From positions 644,534 through 708,533 of the forward strand of contig NZ_CP058351.1 in assembly GCF_005860795.2 (NCBI RefSeq): a stretch of DNA of 64,000 nucleotides. The letters are read 5' to 3'. Below, one piece after another: positions 12,060 to 26,638 of this stretch. The stretch is from Peteryoungia desertarenae. GTDB taxonomy: Bacteria; Pseudomonadota; Alphaproteobacteria; Rhizobiales; Rhizobiaceae. The notes below the pieces were generated by a model. That model worked only from the letters and a program-made list of their open reading frames with translations. It was not told the origin of the DNA and did not search any database. How positions within the stretch are numbered: position 1 is the first letter of the stretch; each line of letters begins with the position of its first letter. A program made the position numbers and the translations under genes.

Positions 12060-13835
12060 TCAGAAGGGAAAGAATATCGGGATGACGATAACGGCAACGA
12101 TCGCAAAGAGGATGTTGAGCGGCAGCCCGACCACCAGGAAGTCGTGAAACTTGTAGCCTCCCGCGCCATAGACGAATGTGTTGGTCTGATAGCCGATCGG
12201 CGTTGCAAAACTCGCCGACGCGGCGAACATGACAGCCATGATGAAGGGGCGCGGATCATAACCGAGCTCGACCGCAAGGCCGATGACGATCGGACCGATC
12301 AGCACCGCAACCGCATTGTTGCTGATCATTTCGGTCAGAAGGCTTGTGAGGATATAGACGGCCGCCAGGACCGTCAGCGGCCCGACAAAGCCGATATTAT
12401 GCACCGCGCTTTCGACAATCAGCTGCGCCGCACCCGTTTCCTCGATCCCCATGCTGAGGCCCAGCATACCGAAAATCAGGAACAGAATACGCCAGTCGAT
12501 CGAATTGAAGGCCTCTTCCGGATCAATGCAACGGGTCATCATCACGATGACGGCGCCAATCAGGGCAAGGCCTGCAATAGGCATGACATCCAGCGCGCCA
12601 AGGAGCATGACACCGAGAATGGTGGCGATTGCGATCGGGGCCTTGGTCCGGCGCGTCGGCCGATCAGTCGGGGTCGACAGATTGATGATGCCGCCATCAT
12701 CCATCAAGCGGCGAATGCCATCCGGCGGACCCTCGAGGAGCAGTGTATCGGCAAATTGCAGACGCAGATCGTTGATCCGGTCGGAAATGTTATGGTCATT
12801 GCGGTGAACGGCCATCACATAGATGCCATAGGCACGCCTGAGGTTGAGGTCGCTCAGAGCCCTGCCGCGCAAATGCGAACTTGTCCCGATACTGGCCTCC
12901 ATCAGCACCGTCTGTTCTGCCGTCACCGGCACGAAACCCGTGTCCGAGATATCGCGGAACTCGACATGACCGTCTTCCTTGAGGCCGAGGAGTTCACCCG
13001 TATCGCTTTTCAGGACAACCCGGTCACCAGCGTCGAGGACAACATCATCCAACGACTGCCGAAGAGAGGTTTCACCACGAATGACGTCGATGATCCGTGT
13101 TTCGGCCGTGTTGAACGGCAGATCGGCGAGCTTCTTGCCGCAATAGCGCGATGCTGTCGGAATGAGAAGGCGCGCCATGAACTTGCGTTTCGTTTCCTGC
13201 CCGAGAACGCTCGCCAGCGAGGCACGATCAGGCAAAAGGAAGCGCCCGGCAAAGACCATGTAGACCATGCCGACCATGGCAAAGACGAGACCCGCCCCTG
13301 TCATTTCGAACATGGAAATGGCCGGCTGGCCGGCCTCCACCGCGACGCTGCTCACCAAGATATTGGTGGAGGTTCCGACAAGTGTCAGGGTTCCACCGAA
13401 GATTGCCGCAAAGGAAAGCGGTATCAGCAGACGGGACGGGGCAACGCCCACACTTGCCGCCACGGAGATCATGATGGGCGTCAGCAGGATCACCACCGGC
13501 GTGTTGTTCATGAAGGCAGAGGCCGCGACCGTACTGGTCATCATGATCAGCATGGCTCTCAGATAGGATCCCCGCGCATGGGTTTTCATGAATTCACCGA
13601 CGATGGCGACCACGCCGGTCCGCTCCAGCGAGGCCGAGATGATGAACATCATGGCAATCGTGATGGGAGCAGAGGAACTGAAAACGCGAAGAAAATCAAC
13701 GGTATCAACAATGCCGGTGGCCAGGAGTGCTGCCGAAGCGCCGAGCGCTGTTACCTCCGGCGGATAGAATTCCCGAAGGAAACTCAGAAAAACGATAACG
13801 ACCAGTGCGAGAACGAAGACTTGTTCCAGAGACAT
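12060..13835 (-). CDS. SLC13-type permease with two TrkA-C (RCK_C) domains
   Basis: The roughly 591-aa membrane protein has hydrophobic helices at both ends (starting LEQVFVLALVVIVFLSF) and a central soluble part of about 200 residues with two RCK_C-like repeats (for example RGETSLRQSLDDVVLDAGDR). A conserved anion-symporter-like motif, AFMNNTPVVILLTPI, is present. Such proteins (YfbS/CitT/DASS superfamily) take up dicarboxylates, sulfate or other anions with sodium or protons; the substrate here is not known. The ATG at 13835 has AGAAGG at proper spacing, and a GTG two codons upstream is rejected. Confidence 0.88.
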   Translation of the reverse strand: MSLEQVFVLALVVIVFLSFLREFYPPEVTALGASAALLATGIVDTVDFLRVFSSSAPITIAMMFIISASLERTGVVAIVGEFMKTHARGSYLRAMLIMMTSTVAASAFMNNTPVVILLTPIMISVAASVGVAPSRLLIPLSFAAIFGGTLTLVGTSTNILVSSVAVEAGQPAISMFEMTGAGLVFAMVGMVYMVFAGRFLLPDRASLASVLGQETKRKFMARLLIPTASRYCGKKLADLPFNTAETRIIDVIRGETSLRQSLDDVVLDAGDRVVLKSDTGELLGLKEDGHVEFRDISDTGFVPVTAEQTVLMEASIGTSSHLRGRALSDLNLRRAYGIYVMAVHRNDHNISDRINDLRLQFADTLLLEGPPDGIRRLMDDGGIINLSTPTDRPTRRTKAPIAIATILGVMLLGALDVMPIAGLALIGAVIVMMTRCIDPEEAFNSIDWRILFLIFGMLGLSMGIEETGAAQLIVESAVHNIGFVGPLTVLAAVYILTSLLTEMISNNAVAVLIGPIVIGLAVELGYDPRPFIMAVMFAASASFATPIGYQTNTFVYGAGGYKFHDFLVVGLPLNILFAIVAVIVIPIFFPF

Positions 13836-13927
13836 GCACACCTTCTCGCAAAGAACCGGATCGCGAGCAATAGACTAACGATCCGCGTTCATTGCAACAG
13901 GTGAGTGTGTGCGAGCAATCAGAAACC

Positions 13928-14158
13928 TCAGCAGCTGCCCGTACGCGCGGAGGCCCAATGCAGAAGATTGGCCTTGTCGAGCGTGTTTCCATTCTGGGAT
14001 TCCAACTCGGCAGCCAATGCATCGCGCGCTGCATTGAGGTGCTCAAGCGCCGACGACGCTCCGACCGCTCCGGCGACACCCATCAGGTAGCCGGTCATGT
14101 TGATCAGAGCCAGAAGCTCCTGATCCCTTTCACTCGAATAGACAGTTTGGTCCGACAT
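13928..14158 (-). CDS. 76-aa protein with C-terminal Arg-Thr-Gly-Ser-Cys, downstream of tfuA
   Basis: A short ORF with AAGGGG upstream of the ATG. The protein has a helical body (SSALEHLNAARDALAAELES) preceded by a small hydrophobic segment (MTGYLMGVAGAVGAS) and ends LLHWASARTGSC, with its only cysteine as the last residue. It lies 124 bp after tfuA on the same strand. I do not recognise the family. A terminal Cys after Ser/Thr/Gly residues beside YcaO-TfuA makes it a candidate modified peptide, loosely like the RQGC end of the trifolitoxin precursor, but it could equally be an unrelated small protein. Confidence 0.6.
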   Translation of the reverse strand: MSDQTVYSSERDQELLALINMTGYLMGVAGAVGASSALEHLNAARDALAAELESQNGNTLDKANLLHWASARTGSC

Positions 14159-14212
14159 CGGCAATGCCCCTTACCCCAGGTTGCTGATTTACAGCCTTAT
14201 CGCATGCTTTGG

Positions 14213-14240
14213 GCGTTGCCACGCGTTGCAAAAGCGTTGC
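14213..14240. repeat. Three GCGTTGC direct repeats at helical spacing
   Basis: GCGTTGC occurs at 14213-14219, 14223-14229 and 14234-14240, spaced 10 and 11 bp, about one DNA turn each. They lie in the gap between tfuA and the 76-aa gene, 55-82 bases upstream of the latter's start. This arrangement is typical of activator binding arrays. Confidence 0.5.
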
Positions 14241-14282
14241 ACACGTATAGGTCACCTTACGGCAAGTCATGAGAGGAATGAT

Positions 14283-14984
14283 TCAACCTGACGCAGAGTA
14301 AAGGCGCCGCCATACGGGTGTTGTGTTGAAAGACCAATCCATAGGCGCGCAAACAGGCGCGTCATCGGACTTGAGACAGGCCAGGAGAGCGAGAGCATCC
14401 AGCCGCTTCTGGTCCCATTGATGGACATGAAGAATTGGACCTACATGCGCCCAATCGAGTCCCGCCTCGACAACAACGCGTTTCCAGCTTCTTTCCTTGT
14501 AGAATATCTGCCTTGCTGCCTGTTGCAGACGACTGACATCCTCACGCGGCATGGAATTGTGGCGGGAGATTTCGTCAAGCGTTCCATCAATATTGACGAT
14601 CGGCACAGTCAGAGCCGGATAACCCAGCTCCGCCGGTCCATGCAGCAGGGCCACATCGGCATCATCATCCCGTCTGCCGTCCCGGTAGTCCTCAAAGATC
14701 CGTCCGACACCAATCATGCCGAAGGCTGCACACTCGGCTGCACGAAGAGCACCCATGCTGGAGGCGCCATAAACGGCAACCCCTTTCGAAAGCGCGTAAA
14801 GCAGCTCTTTGTGCCAGACCGGGGCCACACCCTCGAAAAAACCGTCGATCAGGCCGATCGCTGTCGCGCCCCTGGAAAGCGCGTTCATGATGTCACCCTG
14901 GCGCGCAGGGGGATGCAGGGAGAGCCCCTCCCCGAGATGAAGATCGGCATCCGGCAGGCTCGGTCCGACAAAGACAATCTTCAT
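14283..14984 (-). CDS. tfuA: TfuA-like protein
   Basis: The 233-aa protein begins MKIVFVGPSLPDAD and contains PARQGDIMNAL, GLIDGFFEGVAPVWHKELLYA, GVAVYGASSMGALRAAE and GRIFEDYRDG, the core of the TfuA family (PF07812). TfuA proteins partner YcaO enzymes, for example in trifolitoxin production and in archaeal thioamidation of methyl-CoM reductase, where TfuA is thought to deliver sulfur or assist YcaO. The start at 14984 overlaps the ycaO stop by ATGA, indicating tight coupling. Confidence 0.93.
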   Translation of the reverse strand: MKIVFVGPSLPDADLHLGEGLSLHPPARQGDIMNALSRGATAIGLIDGFFEGVAPVWHKELLYALSKGVAVYGASSMGALRAAECAAFGMIGVGRIFEDYRDGRRDDDADVALLHGPAELGYPALTVPIVNIDGTLDEISRHNSMPREDVSRLQQAARQIFYKERSWKRVVVEAGLDWAHVGPILHVHQWDQKRLDALALLACLKSDDAPVCAPMDWSFNTTPVWRRLYSASG

Positions 14985-16162
14985 TGCAGTGCCCTCGATA
15001 TCGCCCGCATGCCGAAGCGCTGCCGCCTCTCGCCGTCCGGGTTCTCGAGCTGAGGAGCGATCACCTTTACCACTGATGCCGGCAGCCACTCGGGGGACAG
15101 ATCGACGGCATAAAGCCGGTCGATACGCCTGTTTGAAAGCCGGTCAAGCACGGCCTGCAAGGCAGAGGCCGTGTTTGCGGCATCGAAGCTTGGAAGCGAT
15201 GACAGGGCAATGGATGGAACCGCATCGAAAGCCACCAGTGTATCGCTTGACGCAGGCTGCTCGAAAATCTGCGGCAGGTGGTCATCGCGGGCACCGGCAA
15301 TGAATGTCATGCGCGACTGGACCGCCTCGCTGACAGCGCGAGAAACTGCAACCTCAGGATGCGCATGCGCCCCGCAGCCCAGCGTCACCTCCACATGACG
15401 CAACACCGGGAGGGCCTTGCGATCCCGTGGCGCGAGAAGAGCCGTAATCGCCGGGAGCGAAAGATCACTCGTCATGTCGAAGATGGCAATCTCGAGCCCC
15501 GCCTGTTCGATCCGCTCCACCATGATCCGGAGTTCGGGAAGAACGAGACTTGCCGGATCGAGGCGACGGGCATAACGGCGGTTTGGCGGAGTTATCTGCC
15601 AGAGCGTATGGGCATCGCGTTCGATGCGCTCCAGCAGACCATGCAGAATGGCCTCCTCTCGATGATTGCCCGAAGCAAGACCGTCGGAAGACTGCCAATA
15701 GCGCCTGTGATCCAGCGATCGATCAAGATGAACGGCATCATAGGGCAGCCATACTTCCTCGCCAGTAAGCAGATGTCGTGCGGCGACCCATTCAAGCGCC
15801 TCATCCATTGCAAGCGGCTGCGTTTTTGCAGCCAGCAGCTCGTCAAGCCGATCATGGCGGATGGTCTTCTCCTCGAAGACAGCGCGACTGGAGGTGATGA
15901 CACGACAACATGGCGCTGTCGCTACGGAACGTTCCACTGCTTCCATGACGGCGGAGGTCCGGGCTGCCTCGTTGTCAAGCCCCTTGCCCTGAGCAATGAC
16001 GATGGCAAGGGCATTGGGCTGAACGGCGCACCACACCGGTATGCCTATCTTGTCCAGCCCTGTCTGCCGCGCAACCCGTGTAATGCCAAGCCGATACAGA
16101 AAAGGCGAGACCCGATCAAAGGTCTCGCCTGCAGAACAGGAACGGTAAGTTACAACGTCCAT
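14981..16162 (-). CDS. ycaO: YcaO-domain ATP-dependent backbone-modifying enzyme
   Basis: The 393-aa protein has the YcaO ATP-binding signatures SAVMEAVERS, EEAILHGLLERIERDA and VSRAVSEAVQSR. YcaO enzymes phosphorylate peptide amide oxygens to make azolines, thioamides or amidines. The C terminus (MRAISRALQ) lacks the PxPxP tail of azoline-forming YcaOs with an E1-like partner, and no E1-like or dehydrogenase gene is nearby. With tfuA coupled downstream, thioamidation or TfuA-dependent cyclisation is the most likely chemistry (inference). The 71-bp gap upstream separates it from the 72-aa gene. Confidence 0.93.
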   Translation of the reverse strand: MDVVTYRSCSAGETFDRVSPFLYRLGITRVARQTGLDKIGIPVWCAVQPNALAIVIAQGKGLDNEAARTSAVMEAVERSVATAPCCRVITSSRAVFEEKTIRHDRLDELLAAKTQPLAMDEALEWVAARHLLTGEEVWLPYDAVHLDRSLDHRRYWQSSDGLASGNHREEAILHGLLERIERDAHTLWQITPPNRRYARRLDPASLVLPELRIMVERIEQAGLEIAIFDMTSDLSLPAITALLAPRDRKALPVLRHVEVTLGCGAHAHPEVAVSRAVSEAVQSRMTFIAGARDDHLPQIFEQPASSDTLVAFDAVPSIALSSLPSFDAANTASALQAVLDRLSNRRIDRLYAVDLSPEWLPASVVKVIAPQLENPDGERRQRFGMRAISRALQ

Positions 16163-16233
16163 TTGATCGTTCCAAGCCTCACTCGACTTTCAACAAAGCA
16201 TTGAAGACCAAAAGGAGTTGGACTGACATATCT

Positions 16234-16452
16234 TCAGTTTTCGTGGTGACTTTGTGCAATTTCTTCCATCGAGCCAAAGGCAAGGGCAAGATCCACACCT
16301 TTAACAATAGCCGCGCCGCTCCCGCGAAGGGAGTCAGCGGACCCCAGCGTACCAGTAAACGGTTCTTGCAACGCAGACACCGTTCCGTTCCCAAGATCAG
16401 CTACCCACAGTCCCTGTTCACCAGGAAGCCCAATTACTACTACTTTAGACAT
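16234..16452 (-). CDS. 72-aa conserved-looking protein upstream of ycaO
   Basis: A short gene with CGGAG seven bases before the ATG, starting 13 bp after the winged-helix/TPR gene stop. The protein runs MSKVVVIGLPGEQGLWVADL, then Gly/Ser-rich turns (GTLGSADSLRGSGA) and ends EEIAQSHHEN. It has no cysteine and no signal peptide. Its place directly before ycaO is where RiPP precursors often lie, and its Ser/Thr/Gly content would allow thioamide or azoline formation, but the sequence does not resemble a known precursor. I do not recognise the family. Confidence 0.75.
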   Translation of the reverse strand: MSKVVVIGLPGEQGLWVADLGNGTVSALQEPFTGTLGSADSLRGSGAAIVKGVDLALAFGSMEEIAQSHHEN

Positions 16453-16464
16453 TAGAAATCTCCG

Positions 16465-18291
16465 TTATGAGAAACCCGCCTTGACCAAAGCATCGCGGTA
16501 AAGCTCGTCTTGCCATTTTTCCTTGTGCGGAACTGCCTTTATCCACGTTTCAAGATCAAAGCTGGGATTTACCTTCAAAACTCGATCTCGACAGCGCTTT
16601 GCATTTGTTGTTTCACCAATCATGGCCCAACATGCAGCAGCCAATCTGTCGGCTGCTGCCGAATCATTCATTCGACCGATGTATTCAAGGGCCTGCGGAA
16701 ACTGGTACAGAAAGAAGCTCGCACCAGCTGCTGTCCAAAGATAAACATCTGGCATTTCGGGATTCAGATCCATCGCGAGCATTATCTTGACGAGTGCCGC
16801 CTGCGGATCAGAAGCATGCACAAGACTGTCAGCATGACTGTATAGAACATCTGCATAATTCGGACTGAGTTCCTCGGCCCGCGCCAGCGCCTCCACGCTG
16901 TCATCGATCTTGCCGAGGTAGAGCTGACTGACACCCAGCTCCTTATAGGCGCCTGCCAATTCTGGATTCTGCTCCATGGCCTTTCGCGAAAGCCGTTCGG
17001 CCTCCAGCAGCAGATCTTTGTCGCCGCGAGCGGTCAGAAGCCATTCGAAGCTCAGCGTGCGTGAAATGCCGGCCATGGCCACGCCGAAATCACGTCTGTG
17101 CTCAAGCGCCTCGCGGAAATGCCGACGGGCGCGCCGCACGGCTGGCAAGGTCAATTCAGACAGGCTCTGGACGCCGCGAAGATAGGTGAAATAGGCATCC
17201 GGATGACTGGCGAAATCCTGCGAATAGGAGGCCTGGGAGGCCATCATATGCATGATCGAACCCTTGATCGCATCGGCCATTTCGCGTCTTTGATCGCTGA
17301 CGGAGCGGGGATCGAGATGAAAACGCGTGGCCCAGATCACCTCGTCCGTCGGCATGAAGACCAGCTGCACGAAGAGCTTGTCTCCGGATCTCTGGCTATC
17401 AAGGGCATAGACAACGCGATGCCGCTGCAGCATCTCGGCCTTGTCCTTCGAGGCGCGGATCTGTTGCGATGTATAGGGGGCAACGACCGAGACGGCGCGG
17501 CTGGCGCATAGATCGATGGTCAGGTCCTCAATCAGCGCATTCGCCACGGATCCGGCCTGGCCTGCCGCATCCGTGGTTTCGGGCGGCAGGAGCGCCACAC
17601 GCGGCGGCGTCCAGGCAAGTGTCGCCTCAGCGGCGCCGCGCGCGAACTCCCACTGACCGGGGGCTGCGATGTCAAGGAGCGGCGAATGGCCTGCCATTAC
17701 CAGTGCCGGTTGCCTGCTTGGTGTCAGGAAGGCACGAACAGCCTCGTCATGCGGGTCACGTTCAAGCAGAATGACTGCCGCTCTCTGCAGTTCCGCCCTT
17801 GCCTCGTCCAGCAGCGAGGAGGGGTCGAAACCGAGAAATTCGGATCGCAAACGCGCCACATGTCGCGTTCTGACGTCCCTTACCCAGAGGTCCACCGGCC
17901 TCGACCCCTCCCCTTCGGTCGGGAGAAAGCGCTTTAGAACAGCGTCGGTTGCCAGTCTCAACCGCTCAAGCGGCGTGTGAAGCGGCGACAGGAACAGGTC
18001 GCTTGCGACCGTCTGTTTATCCGCCACCAGATGGGTCATTCCGCCCTGGGTCAGGGAGGCGACAAGGTCGGGGCTTATGGCGCCAAGACGTCTCAACAAG
18101 GATCGGAGATTGGTCGCTGCCGCTTCGCGATTTCCAGGCCACAAAAGCTCGGCAATATCGCGTCGCGTCATCGGGGCATCCCGATCCACGAGAAAGGCGA
18201 GCATGACGATTGCGAGATGGGAGACGTTTACAATCTCCCCTGCCTCGGTCTCGAGGCGACAGCTTCCCAAGGTGGTCAGCCGGTAAGTCAT
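16465..18291 (-). CDS. Winged-helix (SARP/BTAD-like) regulator with TPR repeats
   Basis: The 608-aa protein has three parts: an N-terminal winged helix of the type seen in SARP-like activators (TLGSCRLETEAGEIVNVSHL, then DIAELLWPGNREAAATNLRS); a middle region like the TolB-like domain of adenylate-cyclase-associated regulators (ANALIEDLTIDLCASRAVSV); and a C-terminal set of tetratricopeptide repeats from about residue 370 (LSRKAMEQNPELAGAYKELG and later units). It is cytoplasmic. It follows the XRE gene by 6 bp with GAGGAA before its ATG and precedes the 72-aa gene by 13 bp, so it is the probable local activator of the ycaO-tfuA genes. Confidence 0.85.
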   Translation of the reverse strand: MTYRLTTLGSCRLETEAGEIVNVSHLAIVMLAFLVDRDAPMTRRDIAELLWPGNREAAATNLRSLLRRLGAISPDLVASLTQGGMTHLVADKQTVASDLFLSPLHTPLERLRLATDAVLKRFLPTEGEGSRPVDLWVRDVRTRHVARLRSEFLGFDPSSLLDEARAELQRAAVILLERDPHDEAVRAFLTPSRQPALVMAGHSPLLDIAAPGQWEFARGAAEATLAWTPPRVALLPPETTDAAGQAGSVANALIEDLTIDLCASRAVSVVAPYTSQQIRASKDKAEMLQRHRVVYALDSQRSGDKLFVQLVFMPTDEVIWATRFHLDPRSVSDQRREMADAIKGSIMHMMASQASYSQDFASHPDAYFTYLRGVQSLSELTLPAVRRARRHFREALEHRRDFGVAMAGISRTLSFEWLLTARGDKDLLLEAERLSRKAMEQNPELAGAYKELGVSQLYLGKIDDSVEALARAEELSPNYADVLYSHADSLVHASDPQAALVKIMLAMDLNPEMPDVYLWTAAGASFFLYQFPQALEYIGRMNDSAAADRLAAACWAMIGETTNAKRCRDRVLKVNPSFDLETWIKAVPHKEKWQDELYRDALVKAGFS

Positions 18292-18297
18292 TGTTCC

Positions 18298-18726
18298 TCA
18301 ATGGGAGGCGTGAATGGCGCTATCGCTATCCGACTGGGTCGATGCGGAGGGGCCAAGAGACCGCAACAAATTCATGATGTTCTGACGTATGCGCTTGTCT
18401 TCAATCGCGAGAAATGCGCTGGCGAGCGCAATGCCTTCCTTGGAGCTCATGAAGTCGTTGAGTTCGTTTGCCCCCATGTCCATGCTTTCACCAAGCATCC
18501 CCGGGCTTTCCTCGAAGAAATAGGGGATCGGCACATTGAGGATTTCGGCAATGTTCTGCAGGCGGCTTGCGCCCACGCGGTTCATGCCCTTTTCATACTT
18601 CTGCACCTGCTGAAAGGTAATGCCAAGCCCATCGGCGAGCGTCTCCTGACTCATGCCAATCGTCCTGCGGCGCAGCCGAATTCGGGCCCCCACGTGAACG
18701 TCGATTGAGTTGGGTAGCTTTTTCAT
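18298..18726 (-). CDS. XRE-family transcriptional regulator
   Basis: The 142-aa protein has a Cro/CI-type helix-turn-helix at about residues 12-66 (GARIRLRRRTIGMSQETLAD and GITFQQVQKYEKGMNRVGAS) and an acidic C-terminal tail of unknown role, a form common in rhizobia. It is the first gene of the run leading to the winged-helix regulator, 72-aa protein, YcaO and TfuA, so it probably governs the operon and its own promoter. Confidence 0.92.
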   Translation of the reverse strand: MKKLPNSIDVHVGARIRLRRRTIGMSQETLADGLGITFQQVQKYEKGMNRVGASRLQNIAEILNVPIPYFFEESPGMLGESMDMGANELNDFMSSKEGIALASAFLAIEDKRIRQNIMNLLRSLGPSASTQSDSDSAIHASH

Positions 18727-19136: not shown

Positions 19137-19811
19137 TCAACGAGGCAGAGCGAAGCTCGCGCTGGCTTCGCTGACAATCGAAACATGATCATAGGCAGCT
19201 TTGGCCGCCTCGTCCGCCTGGCCACTGATGATGGCTTCAACGATCCGGTCATGCTCGCGCCAGGACTGCGACAATCGTCCTTCCAACCGGAACTGCGCAT
19301 GGCGAAACGGCGACAGCCGAGCGCGCGTGGCAGTCACCAGCTCGAAGATGTAGTCATTGTGGGCGCCTCGATAGATCTGAGTATGGAACTCCGTGTTGTA
19401 GGCAGCGTAATCCTCACCACCCGAAGCGTCGACAAACCGCTTTGACGCCTGATGCATGTCCCGCAATTCCTTGCGCTCGACCGATGTCATCCGCTGCGCA
19501 GCCAGTCTTGCGCAAACCGCCTCCAGTTCAGCCATGGCTTCGAACATGGCATGCAGATGCTTGCCGCTCACATTGGTAACCACCGCCCGTTTGTTCGGCT
19601 GCCGGTCGACAAGGCCCATGGCGCAAAGTTGCCTCAACGCCTCGCGAACGGGTGTGCGCGACACATCAAAGCGCCCCGCCAAAGAAACCTCGTCCAGTTT
19701 TTCGCCCGGCCTCAGAGCGCCTGTCACGATCAGATCGGCGATGGCGCGCACCATCTGTTCAACCGTTGTTCCGGCTCTTGTCACCACGCGCTTGTCAGGC
19801 TTGTTCAACAT
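19137..19811 (-). CDS. GntR family regulator (FCD/FadR-like)
   Basis: The 224-aa protein has an N-terminal GntR winged helix (IVTGALRPGEKLDEVSLAGR and DVSRTPVREALRQLCAMGLV) followed by an all-helical FCD ligand domain with the metal-binding pattern of this subclass (YNTEFHTQIYRGAHNDYIFE, later HDRIVEAI). It is divergent from the BMP/ABC/ureide hydrolase operon, and the spacer contains three TGCATACA-centred sites. It is the likely repressor of that operon. Confidence 0.94.
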   Translation of the reverse strand: MLNKPDKRVVTRAGTTVEQMVRAIADLIVTGALRPGEKLDEVSLAGRFDVSRTPVREALRQLCAMGLVDRQPNKRAVVTNVSGKHLHAMFEAMAELEAVCARLAAQRMTSVERKELRDMHQASKRFVDASGGEDYAAYNTEFHTQIYRGAHNDYIFELVTATRARLSPFRHAQFRLEGRLSQSWREHDRIVEAIISGQADEAAKAAYDHVSIVSEASASFALPR

Positions 19812-20080: not shown

Positions 20081-20125
20081 TTGCTGAACATGAAGAACGG
20101 CCAGCGCCAAACCAGGGGAACGGAT

Positions 20126-21250
20126 ATGAGCACCATCAAAACCATCACTCGCCGCAGTTTCTTGAAGACTTCCGCCGCAGGCGTCGCCGGAGCGACCTTG
20201 CTCCCTGGCGCCTTCATGGCTCCAGCAGTGGCGCAGACCGCATTGACGGTAGGCTTCATCTATGTCGGCCCCAAGGATGATTTCGGCTACAACCAGGCCC
20301 ATGCCGAAGGTGCCGCAATCCTCAAGGCCATGCCCGGCGTAACCGTGATCGAGGAGGAAAACGTTCCCGAAACCGTCGAAGTGCAGAAGTCGATGGAATC
20401 GATGATCAATCTCGACGGCGCATCCGTCCTTTTCCCGACATCCTTCGGCTATTTCGATCCCCATATGCTGGCCATGGCGGCAAAATATCCCGACGCGCAA
20501 TTCCGCCATTGCGGAGGACTGTGGAAGGAGGGGACACATCCGATGAATACCGGATCCTATTTCGGCTATATCGGCCAGGGCCAGTATCTCAACGGGATTG
20601 CGGCGGGTTATGCCTCGACCAGCAAGAAGATCGGCTTTATCGCGGCCAAGCCTATTCCTCAGGTGGTCCAGAACATCAATTCCTTCCTGCTGGGCGCGCG
20701 TTCGGTCGATCCCACCATAACCTGCCAGGTCATCTTCACCGGCGAGTGGTCCCTGGCCGTCAAGGAAGCGGAAGCGACCAATGCCCTGATCGACCAGGGT
20801 GCCGACGTCATCACCTGCCACGTCGACAGCCCGAAGGTCGTGGTCGAAACCGCTGCGGGTCGCGGGGCATTTGTCTGCGGCTATCACGCCAATCAGAGCC
20901 CGCTGGCGCCGGAAAAATATCTGACCGGCGCGGAATGGGCCTGGGGCAATGTCTATACCGATTTCATCAAGAAAGCCCAGACGGGCGAGCCCATGGGCAA
21001 TTTCGTGCGCGGCGGTCTGAAAGACGGTTTCGTCAAGATGAGCCCTCTCGGCCCGGCCGTTTCGGAGGAGGCGCGCAACAAGTTCGAAGCCACCAAGGCC
21101 GAGATGATGAAGGGCGGCTATTCGGTCTTCAAGACGGGCCTCAAGGACAATAACGGCAATGTGGTTGTGACAAGTGACCTCGTGGAAGATGCGATCGAGC
21201 TCGAAAGCATGGGCTATCTGGTCGAAGGCGTGATCGGCTCAACCTCTTGA
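20126..21250 (+). CDS. BMP-family ABC transporter substrate-binding protein (Tat-exported)
   Basis: The roughly 374-aa protein begins with a twin-arginine signal (TRRSFLKTSAAGVAGATLLP, cleavage probably after PAVAQ) followed by the BMP/PnrA fold: TVGFIYVGPKDDFGYNQAHA, GASVLFPTSFGYFDP, YLNGIAAGYAS. BMP proteins feed nucleoside-type ABC importers. The start at 20126 has AGGGGAACGG upstream. As first gene of an operon with two permeases, amide hydrolases and an ATPase, it probably captures a nitrogen-rich amide or ureide rather than a nucleoside (inference). Confidence 0.93.
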   Translation: MSTIKTITRRSFLKTSAAGVAGATLLPGAFMAPAVAQTALTVGFIYVGPKDDFGYNQAHAEGAAILKAMPGVTVIEEENVPETVEVQKSMESMINLDGASVLFPTSFGYFDPHMLAMAAKYPDAQFRHCGGLWKEGTHPMNTGSYFGYIGQGQYLNGIAAGYASTSKKIGFIAAKPIPQVVQNINSFLLGARSVDPTITCQVIFTGEWSLAVKEAEATNALIDQGADVITCHVDSPKVVVETAAGRGAFVCGYHANQSPLAPEKYLTGAEWAWGNVYTDFIKKAQTGEPMGNFVRGGLKDGFVKMSPLGPAVSEEARNKFEATKAEMMKGGYSVFKTGLKDNNGNVVVTSDLVEDAIELESMGYLVEGVIGSTS

Positions 21251-21269
21251 AGTCAGGGGAGCTGCAGCC

Positions 21270-22418
21270 ATGACGGCAGAGCTTGAAAGCCCGAGGCATG
21301 TCGGCCCATCCGTGCCGGTCGGAGATCTCCGACCGGTACTGGAATGGCTTTCAAGAAGGGCCGAACCCGTGGTCATCGGATCGATTGCCGTTCTTGCCGG
21401 GCTCACCGTCTTTGCAATATTCATTGCATTTCTCGGAAAGTCCCCTCTTCAGCTCTTCCAGCTGATGTATCAGGGCGGTTTCGGCAGCTGGTTCTCGTTT
21501 CAAAATGCGCTGAGCCGCGCTGCTCCACTTCTTCTGACAGCGCTTTGTGTGGCCCTACCCGCAAGGCTGGGGCTCACCATCATCGGCGCTGAAGGCGCCG
21601 TCGTTCTCGGCGGCCTGGCGGCAGCAGCCGTGGCACTGCCACTGGTGGGAATGTCCGGTCCATGGGCCCTATGGGCCGTGATGGCGATCGCGGGCATGGT
21701 GGTTGGTGGTGCCTGGATCGGATTGTCCGGTTTTCTGCGCCACTACCGTGGTGTCAACGAGACCATCGCCTCGCTCCTGCTCGCCTATATCGCCATCGCG
21801 CTCATGAACCATCTGATCGAGGGGCCTCTACGCGATCCTGCAAGTCTGAACAAGCCGTCGACGGCACCCCTGCCGGCTGAGGCCATGATCGGCCACATTC
21901 CCGGCATGGATGTGCATTGGGGACTGATCGTGGGCATCATCGCCTGTGTCGTGTCCTATATCATCATCGAGTGGACGACAGCCGGTTTTGCCGCCCGCGT
22001 CGCCGGCGGGAACCTGCGTGCTGCACAAATCCAGGGCCTTCCGGTGGGGCGTCTGATCGTCGGTTTCACCGCGCTCGCAGGCGCCTTTGCCGGACTTGCC
22101 GGGATGATGGAGGTTGCTGCGGTTCAGGGCAGCGCCAACGGGTCCCTGGCGGCGGGTTATGGCTATACCGGCATTCTCGTCGCCTTTCTGGCCCGTCACA
22201 ATCCGCTCGCCATCATCCCGATCGCCATCCTGCTGGGTGGCATTGATGCATCCGGCGGGTTGATCCAGAGACGAATGGATCTGCCGGACGCAACGGTCCT
22301 GTTGCTGCAGGGCACCTTGTTCATAGCCGTGCTCTTTTCGGAAACGCTCTATGGTCGCTTCCGGATGTTCAACCCCGATCTCTGGACACGAGCCGAGACC
22401 AGCAAGGGAGCCCAGTGA
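21270..22418 (+). CDS. ABC transporter permease (BMP/nucleoside type), subunit 1
   Basis: The 382-aa polytopic inner-membrane protein belongs to the branched-chain/ribose-type permease family (BPD_transp_2). Recognisable stretches are LGLTIIGAEGAVVLGGLAAA and GVNETIASLLLAYIAIALMN, then VAGGNLRAAQIQGLPVGRL near the coupling loop. It has a longer N-terminal region than its partner, as expected for the first of a permease pair. Its stop overlaps the next start (TGATG). Confidence 0.92.
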   Translation: MTAELESPRHVGPSVPVGDLRPVLEWLSRRAEPVVIGSIAVLAGLTVFAIFIAFLGKSPLQLFQLMYQGGFGSWFSFQNALSRAAPLLLTALCVALPARLGLTIIGAEGAVVLGGLAAAAVALPLVGMSGPWALWAVMAIAGMVVGGAWIGLSGFLRHYRGVNETIASLLLAYIAIALMNHLIEGPLRDPASLNKPSTAPLPAEAMIGHIPGMDVHWGLIVGIIACVVSYIIIEWTTAGFAARVAGGNLRAAQIQGLPVGRLIVGFTALAGAFAGLAGMMEVAAVQGSANGSLAAGYGYTGILVAFLARHNPLAIIPIAILLGGIDASGGLIQRRMDLPDATVLLLQGTLFIAVLFSETLYGRFRMFNPDLWTRAETSKGAQ

Positions 22419-23344
22419 TGGAAGGCAGCGATATCGGCCTATGGGGTGTTCCTCTGGCAATCCTGGCCGGGGCAATCCGCGTCTCGACGCCCTTCATTTT
22501 TGTCAGCCTCGGCGAAATGCTGACCGAGCGTTCCGGACGTATCAATCTCGGTCTTGAAGGCACGCTTGTCTTTGGTGCGATGGCTGCCTATGGCACCGCT
22601 GTCCTGACCGGTTCGCCCTGGCTTGGCGTGCTTGCCGCAATGGTTGGCGGCGCAGCCTTCGGTCTCGTGCACGGCTTCATCTGCAAGTTTCCGAAGGTCA
22701 ATGACATCGCCATCGGCATTGCGATGATGCAATTCGGTCTGGGTCTTGCCTTCTTTCTCGGGAAGCCTTTCATCCAGCCGTCTGCCCCCAAGCTCCCGTC
22801 CATCTCCTTCGGGGCCTGGTCAAGCTATCCGCAGGTCCAGGCCGCACTGAACATCAATATCCTGTTCCTGATCGGGATCATGCTCGCCCTCTTTCTCTCC
22901 TGGGCCCTGCGCAACACGAGGATCGGCCTTGTGCTGCGTGTGGTCGGAGACAGTTCGGATGCAGCGCGCGCCATGGGCATCAGTCCGGACCTCGTCCGTT
23001 TGGCAGCGACGACTGCCGGCGGGGCACTGGCCGCGATTGGCGGTGCCTATCTGTCGCTGTTCTATCCCGGTTCCTGGAACGAAGGAATTTCCTCCGGCCA
23101 GGGCCTGATGGCAGTTGCTCTCGTCATCTTTGCACGCTGGAACCCCTTGGGATGTCTCGCCGCCTCGATGCTGTTCGGTGGAGCCGGCGCCCTCGGCCCC
23201 GCCCTGCAATCCGTCGGCATCACGTCCGGCTACTATCTCTTCTACGCCGCACCCTATGTGCTCACCCTGATCATCATGATCGCCACATCGTCACCGACGC
23301 GATCACTGACCGGAGCGCCGGGCGCATTGTCTCTGACCAAGTAA
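22418..23344 (+). CDS. ABC transporter permease (BMP/nucleoside type), subunit 2
   Basis: The 308-aa polytopic permease, second of the pair, has FVSLGEMLTERSGRINLGLE near the N terminus, a signature of this family, and VVGDSSDAARAMGISPDLVR in the cytoplasmic coupling region. Translation is coupled to the preceding permease by TGATG. Together with the ATPase at 25.1 kb it forms the membrane channel for the BMP-bound substrate. Confidence 0.92.
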   Translation: MEGSDIGLWGVPLAILAGAIRVSTPFIFVSLGEMLTERSGRINLGLEGTLVFGAMAAYGTAVLTGSPWLGVLAAMVGGAAFGLVHGFICKFPKVNDIAIGIAMMQFGLGLAFFLGKPFIQPSAPKLPSISFGAWSSYPQVQAALNINILFLIGIMLALFLSWALRNTRIGLVLRVVGDSSDAARAMGISPDLVRLAATTAGGALAAIGGAYLSLFYPGSWNEGISSGQGLMAVALVIFARWNPLGCLAASMLFGGAGALGPALQSVGITSGYYLFYAAPYVLTLIIMIATSSPTRSLTGAPGALSLTK

Positions 23345-23366
23345 CGCTTTCCGATTGGAGAACCAC

Positions 23367-24383
23367 ATGAATGGTCTAGGTGGACTGAACAAATCCGAAC
23401 ACGGGGTCGGGATTGGCCTGGTACAGCTGCAGTTGCCGAATACCGTGACCAAGGCCGACCTCGCGCACCAGACGAACGTCATTGTCGACCTTGTGGGCAA
23501 GGCACGGCGAAACCAGCCCGGAATGGATCTGGTGATCTTCCCGGAATATGCACTTCACGGCCTGTCCATGGATATCAATCCCGAGATCATGTGCTCGCTC
23601 GATGGTCCGGAAGTGGCGGCTTTCAAGGCCGCCTGCAAGGCCAACCATATCTGGGGCTGCTTCTCGATCATGGAGCTGAACCCGGGCGGCATGCCTTTCA
23701 ACTCCGGCATCATCATCGACGACCAGGGCGAACTGAAACTCTATTATCGCAAGATGCACCCGTGGGTGCCTGTGGAACCATGGGAACCGGGAGATCTGGG
23801 CATCCCGGTGATCGAAGGTCCCAAGGGGGCCAGGATTGCGCTGATCATCTGCCATGATGGCATGTTCCCGGAAATGGCGCGGGAATGCGCCTACAAGGGT
23901 GCCGAGATCATGATCCGCACGGCAGGGTATACCGCTCCCATTCGCGAGAGCTGGAAATTCACCAATCAGTCCAACGCCTTCTGTAACCTGATGGTGACTG
24001 CCAGCGTCTGCATGTGCGGGACAGACGGGACCTTCGATTCCATGGGCGAAGGCATGATCTGCAATTTCGATGGCACGATCATCGCGCATGGCACCAGCGG
24101 TCGCGTGAACGAGATCATCACGGCGGAGGTGAGACCCGATCTCATACGTGAGGCACGTCTGGGCTGGGGCGTCGAAAACAACATCTACCAATTCGGTCAT
24201 CGCGGCTATGTCGCCGTCGATGGCGGGGCTCAGGACGCACCCTACACCTACATGCATGACCTGATCGCGGGCAAATACCGGCTTCCCTGGGAAGACGAGA
24301 TCAAGGTGAAGGACGGGACGTCCTGCGGCTTCGACAAACCTCACCGTCGCTTCGGTGAAACCTACAAGCTTGCCGGTGAATAG
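23367..24383 (+). CDS. amiF: Formamidase (nitrilase superfamily)
   Basis: The 338-aa protein shows the nitrilase-fold Glu-Lys-Cys triad: VIFPEYALHG (Glu60), YYRKMHPW (Lys129) and LIICHDGMFPE (Cys162). Long identical-looking blocks such as VPVEPWEPGDLGIPVIEGPK and KGAEIMIRTAGYTAPIRESW match the AmiF/AmiE aliphatic amidase branch, and the MNGLGGLNKS start and overall length favour AmiF, which converts formamide to formate and ammonia. GGAG precedes the ATG at 23367. In this operon it may act on formamide or another small amide released from the imported compound. Confidence 0.88.
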   Translation: MNGLGGLNKSEHGVGIGLVQLQLPNTVTKADLAHQTNVIVDLVGKARRNQPGMDLVIFPEYALHGLSMDINPEIMCSLDGPEVAAFKAACKANHIWGCFSIMELNPGGMPFNSGIIIDDQGELKLYYRKMHPWVPVEPWEPGDLGIPVIEGPKGARIALIICHDGMFPEMARECAYKGAEIMIRTAGYTAPIRESWKFTNQSNAFCNLMVTASVCMCGTDGTFDSMGEGMICNFDGTIIAHGTSGRVNEIITAEVRPDLIREARLGWGVENNIYQFGHRGYVAVDGGAQDAPYTYMHDLIAGKYRLPWEDEIKVKDGTSCGFDKPHRRFGETYKLAGE

Positions 24384-24392
24384 GAGCATAGC

Positions 24393-25094
24393 ATGGACAA
24401 GATGATCGATCGGAAGACCCATTACATTGAAGGTGACCCCTACAACTGGCCCTATAATGGCGAGCTTCGACCCGACAACACCGCTCTGATCATCATCGAC
24501 ATGCAGACGGATTTCTGCGGCAAGGGCGGTTATGTCGACCACATGGGCTATGACCTATCGCTGGTGCAGGCGCCGATCGAACCGATCAAATCGGTGTTGG
24601 CCGCCATGCGCGCCAAGGGCTATCACATCATTCATACCCGTGAAGGTCATCGCCCGGATCTTGCCGACCTGCCTGCCAACAAAAGGTGGCGCTCCCAACG
24701 CATAGGTGCCGGAATTGGCGATACTGGCCCATGCGGTCGCATCCTTGTCCGCGGTGAACCCGGCTGGGACATCATCCCCGAGCTTTACCCCCTTCCCGGT
24801 GAGACAATCATCGACAAGCCTGGCAAAGGATCTTTTTGTGCAACCGATCTGGAACTCATTCTGAACCAGAAGCGGATCGAAAACATCATCCTGACGGGCA
24901 TCACCACGGATGTCTGTGTATCGACCACCATGCGCGAGGCCAATGACCGCGGTTTCGAATGCCTCCTGCTGGAAGACTGCTGCGGCGCGACGGACTACGG
25001 CAACCATCTGGCGGCGATCAAGATGGTCAAGATGCAGGGCGGGGTCTTCGGCTCCGTCTCGAATTCGACAACACTTGTGAGCCAGTTGCCATGA
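24393..25094 (+). CDS. biuH: Biuret hydrolase (isochorismatase-like cysteine hydrolase)
   Basis: The 233-aa isochorismatase-fold enzyme has the triad Asp36 (IIIDMQTDF), Lys142 (DKPGKGSF) and Cys175 ([10 protein letters not shown]), with Gln215 in KMQGGVFGS. These positions coincide exactly with those I recall for the Rhizobium leguminosarum biuret hydrolase BiuH, and the N-terminal extension [20 protein letters not shown] also fits. BiuH hydrolyses biuret to allophanate and ammonia. GGAG precedes the ATG, and the stop overlaps the ATPase start by ATGA. No allophanate hydrolase is present in the window. Confidence 0.82.
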
Positions 25095-26638
25095 GTGGAG
25101 AGATTGCCCTGCCTGGAAAAACGGACAAGGCCCTGGGCATCGAGACCGCATCCATGACCATGCGGTTCGGGAGCTTTACCGCGCTCGACCAGGTGTCGAT
25201 CAAGGTTCAGCCTGGCTCGTTCCACGCTCTGCTTGGCGAAAACGGAGCCGGCAAATCGACACTCGTCAAGTGTATCATGGGGTTCTATCGACCGACTTCC
25301 GGGCAGCTTCTGATACAAAACCGGGAGGTGGAGATCGCCTCGCCTCGGGACGCCGCCGCCCACGGCCTGGGAATGGTCTACCAGCATTTCACGCTGGTTC
25401 CCTCGCTGACTGGTGCGGAAAATCTTGTGATCAGTCGAAATGAAGTGCCCGCTGTCATCGACTGGACGATTGAGAAGAAGGCCCTTTCGGCCTTTATGGA
25501 CAGGATGCCCTTCCAGATTCCGCTTGACCGGCCGGTTCGCGAACTCGCTGCCGGAGAGAAGCAGAAGCTTGAAATCATCAAGCAACTCTATCTCGGACGC
25601 CGCTTTCTGATCCTTGACGAACCGACATCGGTTCTCACTCCGGCAGAGGCCGATGACATGCTGGGTCTGGTGCGTGGCATGACAGAACGTGGTGAACTGA
25701 CGGCGCTGATGATCAGCCACAAGTTTCACGAAGTGACGAAATTTGCCGATCATGTATCGGTTTTGCGGAAGGGCAAACTGGCAGGGTCTGGCGCAACGTC
25801 AGAGCTGACAACGCATGACATGGCCCAGATGATGATCGGCGATGTCCGTCTTGTCGAGCTTGATAGCCGGAAAACCGTTCACGACGAGGGGAGAAGCGTT
25901 CTGGACATCAGGAAGGTCCGGGCCGCAGACCGCAGCGGACTGAAGGAAATCGTCATCGACGAGCTGAGTGTGCGCGCCGGGGAAATCGTGGGGATCGCCG
26001 GAATTTCGGGCAATGGCCAAAAGGAACTGCTGGAGATCCTGGCGGGTCAGCGACCCGTTGAAGCAGGCGAGATACGGGTTAAGGATACAGCCTATCGCGC
26101 TACCCGGGCCGAAAGCCGGAGCCATAATGTTCGCTTCATTCCCGAAGAACCGCTGCAGAATGCCTGTGCGCCCAGAATGAGTGTCGCGGAAAACCTTGCC
26201 TTTCGCAGTTTCGACTTGAGACTTGACGGAAGCCTGGCGCGCTTCATCAATCCCAAGGAAATCCGCCGTCGGGCCGAAGGGTTGATTTCAGAGTTCAAGG
26301 TCAAGACAGCCTCGCCGGCCTCGCCGATCGCCTCACTTTCCGGCGGCAATGTCCAGCGCGCGGTTCTGGCACGGGAGCTTACCGGCGAGGTCGATCTGCT
26401 GATCGTGTCGAACCCCTGTTTCGGTCTGGACTTTTCCGCCGTTGCCGAAATCCGGGCACGCATCATGAAGGCGCGCAATAGCGGTGCAGCAGTGCTTCTG
26501 GTTTCGGAAGACCTCGATGAACTTCTGGAAATGTGTGATCGGATTCTGGTGATGTCTGACGGAAGATTGGTTTTCGAAACAGCGGCACGCGATGCCGAGG
26601 TCGGCGTCATCGGCGCCCATATGGCGGGGCATCACTGA
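25091..26638 (+). CDS. ABC transporter ATPase, two nucleotide-binding domains
   Basis: The 515-aa protein has two fused ATPase domains as in nucleoside/sugar importers. The first has Walker [10 protein letters not shown] and Walker [14 protein letters not shown]. The second has a degenerate Walker [10 protein letters not shown] and the signature [16 protein letters not shown]. It also carries the family ending ALIEDLDEL-like stretch ([18 protein letters not shown]). It energises the two permeases at 21.3-23.3 kb although it is separated from them by the amidase and biuH genes, and it overlaps both neighbours (ATGA, TGATG). Confidence 0.94.

Follow-up and report, generated by a model that had tools for sequence, protein, structure and literature searches.

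Gene content and conservation of the locus

The window analysed here, a 64,000-nucleotide stretch of the Peteryoungia desertarenae contig NZ_CP058351.1 (positions 644,534 to 708,533), carries on its minus strand, from 18726 to 13928, six genes that encode in order an XRE-family transcriptional regulator, a larger regulator with TPR repeats, a 72-residue protein (n72), YcaO, TfuA, and a 76-residue protein (c76). This one-strand order is present as a first-pass annotation of the DNA had claimed. The subject of this work is n72, which is predicted to be the precursor of a ribosomally synthesized and post-translationally modified peptide (RiPP). The 142-residue XRE protein (18298..18726, minus strand, as for all six genes) matches HTH_3 at 48.2 bits (Pfam cut-off 23). 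The 608-residue protein encoded next to it (16465..18291) is a BTAD/SARP-like regulator that had been described as a winged-helix/TPR protein; TPR matches are found, weakly and below the Pfam cut-offs, and the BTAD cut-off is passed by three of six homologues, while a winged helix was not detected. The n72 gene (16234..16452) precedes those for YcaO (393 residues; 14981..16162), predicted to activate backbone amides with ATP and matching PF02624 at 230.2 bits (cut-off 25.7), and for TfuA (233 residues; 14283..14984), the predicted sulfur-delivery partner, which matches PF07812 at 146.5 bits (cut-off 30) and whose start overlaps the end of the YcaO gene through the sequence ATGA. The c76 gene (13928..14158) starts with ATG, and an upstream TTG is an alternative start that would give 78 residues. 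Neither n72 nor c76 (the latter queried minus its first residue) matches a Pfam family, and a database search that needs shared five-residue words returned for each of them itself and one relative. The window has no Rfam matches at the gathering cut-offs and no tRNAs.

Conservation of the gene set was followed in 80 named loci. These are the best 80 of the 147 YcaO relatives that a 23-row YcaO alignment picked out in named genomes, and their titles all give Rhizobiaceae genera or 'Rhizobiales bacterium'. XRE, TPR, YcaO, and TfuA were counted by phmmer from the window proteins, and n72 and c76 with family models. By these counts XRE is present in 75 loci, TPR in 75, n72 in 76, YcaO in 80, TfuA in 71, and c76 in 80, and all six genes occur together in 68. 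Because the models were built largely from the same loci (39 of the 41 rows of the n72 model were drawn from them, and 62 of the loci went into the c76 model), the n72 and c76 counts are not independent. However, tblastn with the window sequences alone recovers n72 in 75 of the 80 loci (c76 in 22), so n72 lies beside YcaO more often than expected by chance. The genomic half of the refutation test proposed with the first-pass annotation, a lack of conservation of the small open reading frames (ORFs) next to YcaO-TfuA homologues, is contradicted by these counts, and the two regulators, each in 75 loci, belong to the gene set as that annotation had supposed. No seventh conserved family on the same strand occurs in more than 19 of the 80 loci; what else recurs often is ORFs that run antisense or in overlapping frames.

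Outside these loci the distribution of n72 is narrow. The n72 hidden Markov model finds the protein in 30 of 397 genomes of an order-wide sample (12 of 142 genera, eight family codes), and all 30 of these loci have a TPR homologue; in 27 of them a YcaO gene lies no more than about 1.5 kb away. In a family-wide sample n72 is present in 49 of 297 genomes, and three genomes of the same genus listed there are without it; a class-wide sample yields it in one of 385 genomes, the P. desertarenae genome itself, and a phylum-wide sample in six of 398, all of the same family. From this distribution the n72 operon looks like an accessory system belonging to one order. The same operon is found on named plasmids, for example pSymB of Sinorhizobium meliloti, where no TfuA gene lies beside that for YcaO, and pC5.7c of Rhizobium rhizogenes.

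n72 as predicted precursor and the likely chemistry

An alignment of 76 n72 rows (75 named loci and the window) divides the protein into two parts. The N-terminal ~50 residues are conserved across families, with the consensus MAKVVVIGIxGExGLWLADLxxGTV..., and resemble a leader, whereas the C-terminal core differs by clade, reading SHHEN in the window and SGHVDG, SGLYEG, AGLFDA, SSHHEG, or GIHEG elsewhere. Despite this variation, [SG]x[HYFVLMI][EDV] is found within the last 12 residues in all 76 rows. The predicted core of the window protein (residues 66-72, AQSHHEN; 16237..16257, minus strand), delimited by alignment to the C-termini and repeat units of relatives, is present as a single copy. 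Other members carry several: three core units occur in four of the 76 rows (L024, L032, L033, and L040), and among the order-wide relatives at least two copies were seen by eye in 17 of 30 loci. Counted units number four in L091 and L092, seven in L093, eight in L109, five in L110, six in L111, and two in L103 and L094, and examples of such tandem cores behind a related leader are GGFFE in four copies and ASHHYFP in eight. (Two many-core precursors, at L121:7061-7774 and L123:7110-7613, have eight ASHHYFP and six ASHIFYG cores, respectively; the spacers of the former alternate between two types.) For ten rows the longest repeat was compared with 500 shuffles of the tail, and it was matched by no shuffle in L091, L092, L093, L109, L110, L111, and L103, by one in L024 and in L040, and by 16 in L094, where the signal is weak.

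The gene is also duplicated. Tandem n72 genes with unlike cores are present in L002 (GHYE and GGFLER) and L006 (SGVYE and GGHHER), L162 likewise has two n72 genes with different cores, and on R. rhizogenes pC5.7c (L140) an extra three-unit precursor lies ahead of a second YcaO-TfuA pair. In that region (L140:4769-10371) two YcaO genes follow one another, and the TfuA frame of the first n72 operon looks interrupted in a three-frame translation. Among 18 n72 rows of equal length (70 residues each), the ratio of nonsynonymous to synonymous variation, pN/pS, is 0.23 for the whole gene, which argues that n72 evolves as a protein; it is 0.22 for residues 1-46, 0.29 for residues 47-62, and 0.11 for the last eight, making the core the most constrained part. 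A regulator or structural protein would have no obvious reason to multiply its C-terminal residues, and the leader, the variable and tandemly repeated cores, and the duplicated genes give n72 the features of RiPP precursors, including that of thiovarsolin. Taken together, these comparisons of sequence argue that n72 is very probably the substrate of the neighbouring YcaO and TfuA, so that the target of modification, which the first-pass annotation had left as unknown, is now most likely n72. A role as ThiS-like sulfur carrier was rejected for either small protein, as the C-terminal Gly-Gly is absent from both by eye.

The nature of the modification is suggested by the two enzymes. A TfuA gene adjoining one for YcaO is an accepted sign of thioamidation. 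The closest solved relative of the window YcaO is MJ1094 (E = 1e-37, over residues 4-390), which carries the Protein Data Bank label 'uncharacterized' and which we take to be a thioamidating YcaO of the McrA type; the azoline enzymes MusD, LynD, and TruD align just in part. TfuA has a solved relative in 6xp8 (E = 5.4e-26). Among the six proteins no E1/ThiF or RiPP recognition element (RRE) partner was detected with Pfam or NCBIfam, and Cys is present in one of the 76 n72 rows. Because Cys is so rare and no E1 partner is encoded, the chemistry is likely to be thioamidation rather than azole formation. The locus does not look like a standard azole RiPP cluster, in agreement with the first-pass annotation, and its proposal of a candidate RiPP or thioamidation locus gains support from the comparisons of loci, with the chemistry itself being predicted. 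In our judgment there is a good probability that the n72 C-terminal core is converted by YcaO and TfuA into a peptide with a backbone thioamide.

Such a pathway would begin with the XRE and BTAD/TPR regulators, which are conserved together with the other genes and may turn the operon on. After translation of n72, its conserved leader would dock directly on YcaO, since no E1 or RRE partner is encoded. By analogy with its family, YcaO would then use ATP to activate one of the core's backbone amides, and TfuA would provide sulfide, probably from a ThiS-type carrier. These steps follow the literature on the two families, which in the portions available to us assigns ATP-dependent amide activation to YcaO and sulfur delivery to TfuA, with the sulfur reaching TfuA via a ThiS-like carrier in organisms without high sulfide (PMC13063428, PMC13174530). 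The carrier step fits the genome (4.34 Mb in three contigs), which encodes one YcaO, one TfuA, and two ThiS/MoaD-family proteins. Finally, housekeeping peptidases may release a short modified peptide, as proposed for the thiovarsolins. It is speculation that the recurrent His, aromatic, and acidic residues next to a thioamide would suit metal binding.

Several observations weigh against n72 thioamidation as outlined above. The n72 leader has no match to a known leader, RRE, or fold, and no conserved protease or exporter gene is found in the 80 loci. The equivalog models for the YcaO and TfuA proteins of McrA-glycine thioamidation both score below their cut-offs (TIGR03266, 211.1 bits against 365; NF033432, 165.7 against 235.2), and the last eight n72 residues include at least one Ser, Thr, or Cys in 69 of the 76 rows, for which azoline chemistry would be conceivable. 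In nine of the 80 loci no TfuA gene follows that for YcaO, with c76 still present, and in four (L046, L052, L060, and L075) YcaO is kept without n72 and TPR; we take these four to reflect decay or supply in trans. Conversely, TPR-n72 pairs occur without a nearby YcaO gene in L088 and L089, and two stretches of about 15 kb (L124 and L125) also lack one; in L124 a transposase-like ORF, recognized by eye, immediately follows n72. Twenty regions were chosen from 54 family-wide n72 places because their matches were weak, double, or long-frame: 18 of them have YcaO, and it is likewise missing beside n72 in the remaining two, L146 and L159. (The lack of YcaO in L105 is due to the end of the contig.)

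Two of these points, the absence of TfuA from nine loci and the frequency of Ser, Thr, or Cys at the n72 C-terminus, would suit an alternative in which n72 is the substrate, but YcaO performs azoline, amidine, or peptide-cleavage chemistry and sulfur donation is not the role of TfuA. The missing E1/ThiF and RRE partners, the lack of a further same-strand gene conserved beyond 19 of the 80 loci, the near absence of Cys, and the seven of 76 rows whose final eight residues contain none of Ser, Thr, and Cys all count against this, as does the presence of TfuA elsewhere in all nine genomes that lack it locally (see below); we consider it unlikely. In another alternative, YcaO and TfuA thioamidate a housekeeping protein, as for McrA or uL16, with n72 serving as an escort or as a regulator of small size. 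The relationship to MJ1094, the four loci with YcaO and no n72, and the prediction that n72 is partly folded (mean predicted local distance difference test score, pLDDT, of 77) are compatible with this. However, the tandem repetition of C-termini and the duplication of n72 genes make little sense for a regulator, n72 is patchy even within its family (49 of 297 genomes), and the NCBIfam equivalog YcaO_for_S12 (NF040716), read here as the model for the uL16 group, gives 24.2 bits where its cut-off is 700. This second alternative seems to us quite improbable.

The remaining small protein, c76, is predicted to form a helical hairpin, with a mean pLDDT above 90 in every block over residues 11-50. 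A Foldseek search gave no match with E below 1.7, so that assignment of c76 to a known fold was rejected for want of an informative match. That c76 could be a second precursor, with n72 and c76 yielding a two-peptide product, is very improbable: its C-terminus is its most variable part (GHC, RSH, LQ), and it is kept where TfuA is absent and accompanies n72 in the YcaO-less L146, but no repeated or duplicated c76 tails were seen by eye, its conserved part is the confidently predicted hairpin, and no tail motif is common across clades. From its predicted structure c76 looks like a folded helical accessory protein and not a second substrate. In the thioamidation pathway it would travel with n72, and our guess is that it serves as a chaperone, an escort, or an immunity or regulatory partner.

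Separated parts of the operon

The nine loci in which TfuA does not follow YcaO were traced further. All nine genomes encode TfuA elsewhere, in two to three places each and 20 in total, of which 12 were read; loss of TfuA was thus ruled out. In five of them (L126-L130, which belong to the genomes of loci L039, L057, L068, L070, and L081) the TfuA gene lies directly after that for an XRE homologue, with no YcaO gene within the ~3.4 kb read. In a TfuA tree these five proteins nest, at the level of the clade, inside the operon-TfuA clade with 98/92 support; the 78 rows of this clade comprise 71 from operons, two from other families, and the five. As for the best TfuA of the other four genomes, that of L131 lies beside its own YcaO, and those of L132-L134 have no YcaO in the stretch read. 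The YcaO-less L146 retains c76, and its genome has n72, YcaO, and TfuA at another place (L147). The finding of TfuA elsewhere in all nine genomes suggests that the separated parts of the operon probably act in trans.

The genes flanking the operon in the window appear not to belong to it. A CitMHS transporter gene (12060-13841) has zero matches in the 80 named loci, searched to at most 7 kb on each side, and a GntR gene (19137-19811) has just scattered weak matches across them. Beyond the latter, on the plus strand (20081-26638), translations read by eye show a substrate-binding protein, two permeases, and an ATPase around amidase- and isochorismatase-like ORFs, an arrangement that looks suited to taking up and hydrolysing a small amide.

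Relation to known systems

The tfuA gene of trifolitoxin producers, reportedly described by Breil et al. in 1996, has its gene family name and a rhizobial host in common with the n72 operon. Trifolitoxin itself, according to the accessible text of a later report, is made by its own tfx cluster (PMC9670871). MJ1094 and 6xp8 are the closest solved relatives of the two enzymes, whereas the n72 locus is a bacterial accessory operon with a predicted dedicated small substrate.

The nearest likeness is to the thiovarsolin cluster of Streptomyces varsoviensis. As described in the sections of the report available to us, varA, varY, and varT suffice for thiovarsolin B, the precursor has repeating cores, and the cluster has no specific protease (PMC6511847). 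The minimal set of precursor, YcaO, and TfuA and the lack of a specific protease are features that the n72 operon shares, and the thiovarsolin case provides a precedent for its missing leader-removal gene. Thiovarsolin precursors, in the same portion of that source, range from non-repeating to five repeats (PMC6511847), as the n72 family spans single to multiple cores. The two systems differ in that the thiovarsolin core is APR/GPR and comes from a different phylum, while the n72 core is [SG]x[HYFVLMI][EDV]; none of the 76 n72 rows has an APR/GPR C-terminus. They also differ, as compared by gene content from the available text, in that the thiovarsolin cluster has varO, varL, varP, and varS, and the n72 operon has BTAD, XRE, and c76. 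With respect to the heme-oxygenase-like varO, no seventh same-strand gene reaches more than 19 of the 80 loci, a count made without a search of the neighbouring genes for the varO family; heme-oxygenase-like genes are reported in several Sinorhizobium clusters in the accessible part of a survey (PMC8120280).

That survey, by Malit et al. in 2021, gives in the text available more than 500 TfuA-related clusters in Rhizobium, with Rhizobium, Agrobacterium, and Corallococcus making up the gene cluster families that dominate in the proteobacteria (PMC8120280). Its precursor types as seen there are CCRG-2, albusnodin-like, berninamycin-like (some of them in Rhizobium), and Nif11-like (Rhizobium among others), and its peptide list has 7,799 entries (PMC8120280). 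The n72 loci are very probably included, and clusters of the n72 type have almost certainly been counted in earlier surveys. A 2015 paper, in the portion available, calls the substrates of TfuA-associated YcaO proteins unknown (PMC4603692); the characterized YcaO-TfuA RiPPs in the accessible text of a 2026 preprint are thioviridamide-like peptides, the thiovarsolins, thiopeptides, chimeric lanthipeptides, and its own std peptide (PMC13174530). The present analysis adds n72 as a likely precursor for clusters of this type.

Two other loci have small ORFs near YcaO and TfuA. On pRL11 of R. johnstonii 3841 (L139:2668-7258) a paralogous set consists of a BTAD regulator, a 47-residue ORF, YcaO, TfuA, and an 88-residue ORF; the 47-residue ORF has two LRF segments, looks unlike n72 when compared by eye, and may represent a different kind of precursor. 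On pAB510d of Azospirillum sp. B510 (L138:4635-6961) a 65-residue hypothetical protein, by eye not recognizably n72, lies upstream of YcaO-TfuA, in a bacterium of a different taxonomic order.

A broader picture, which we regard as evenly balanced between right and wrong, is that YcaO and TfuA make short, possibly metal-binding thioamides in a system whose TfuA, extra precursors, and regulators are mobile and serve in trans, with c76 as a new, near-constant partner. The natural separation of TfuA from YcaO offers a clean system for asking whether TfuA works in trans. In addition, a named precursor with readable cores provides a concrete, testable substrate for YcaO and TfuA enzymes that are common among rhizobia, in host genera that are important in legume symbiosis and the rhizosphere.

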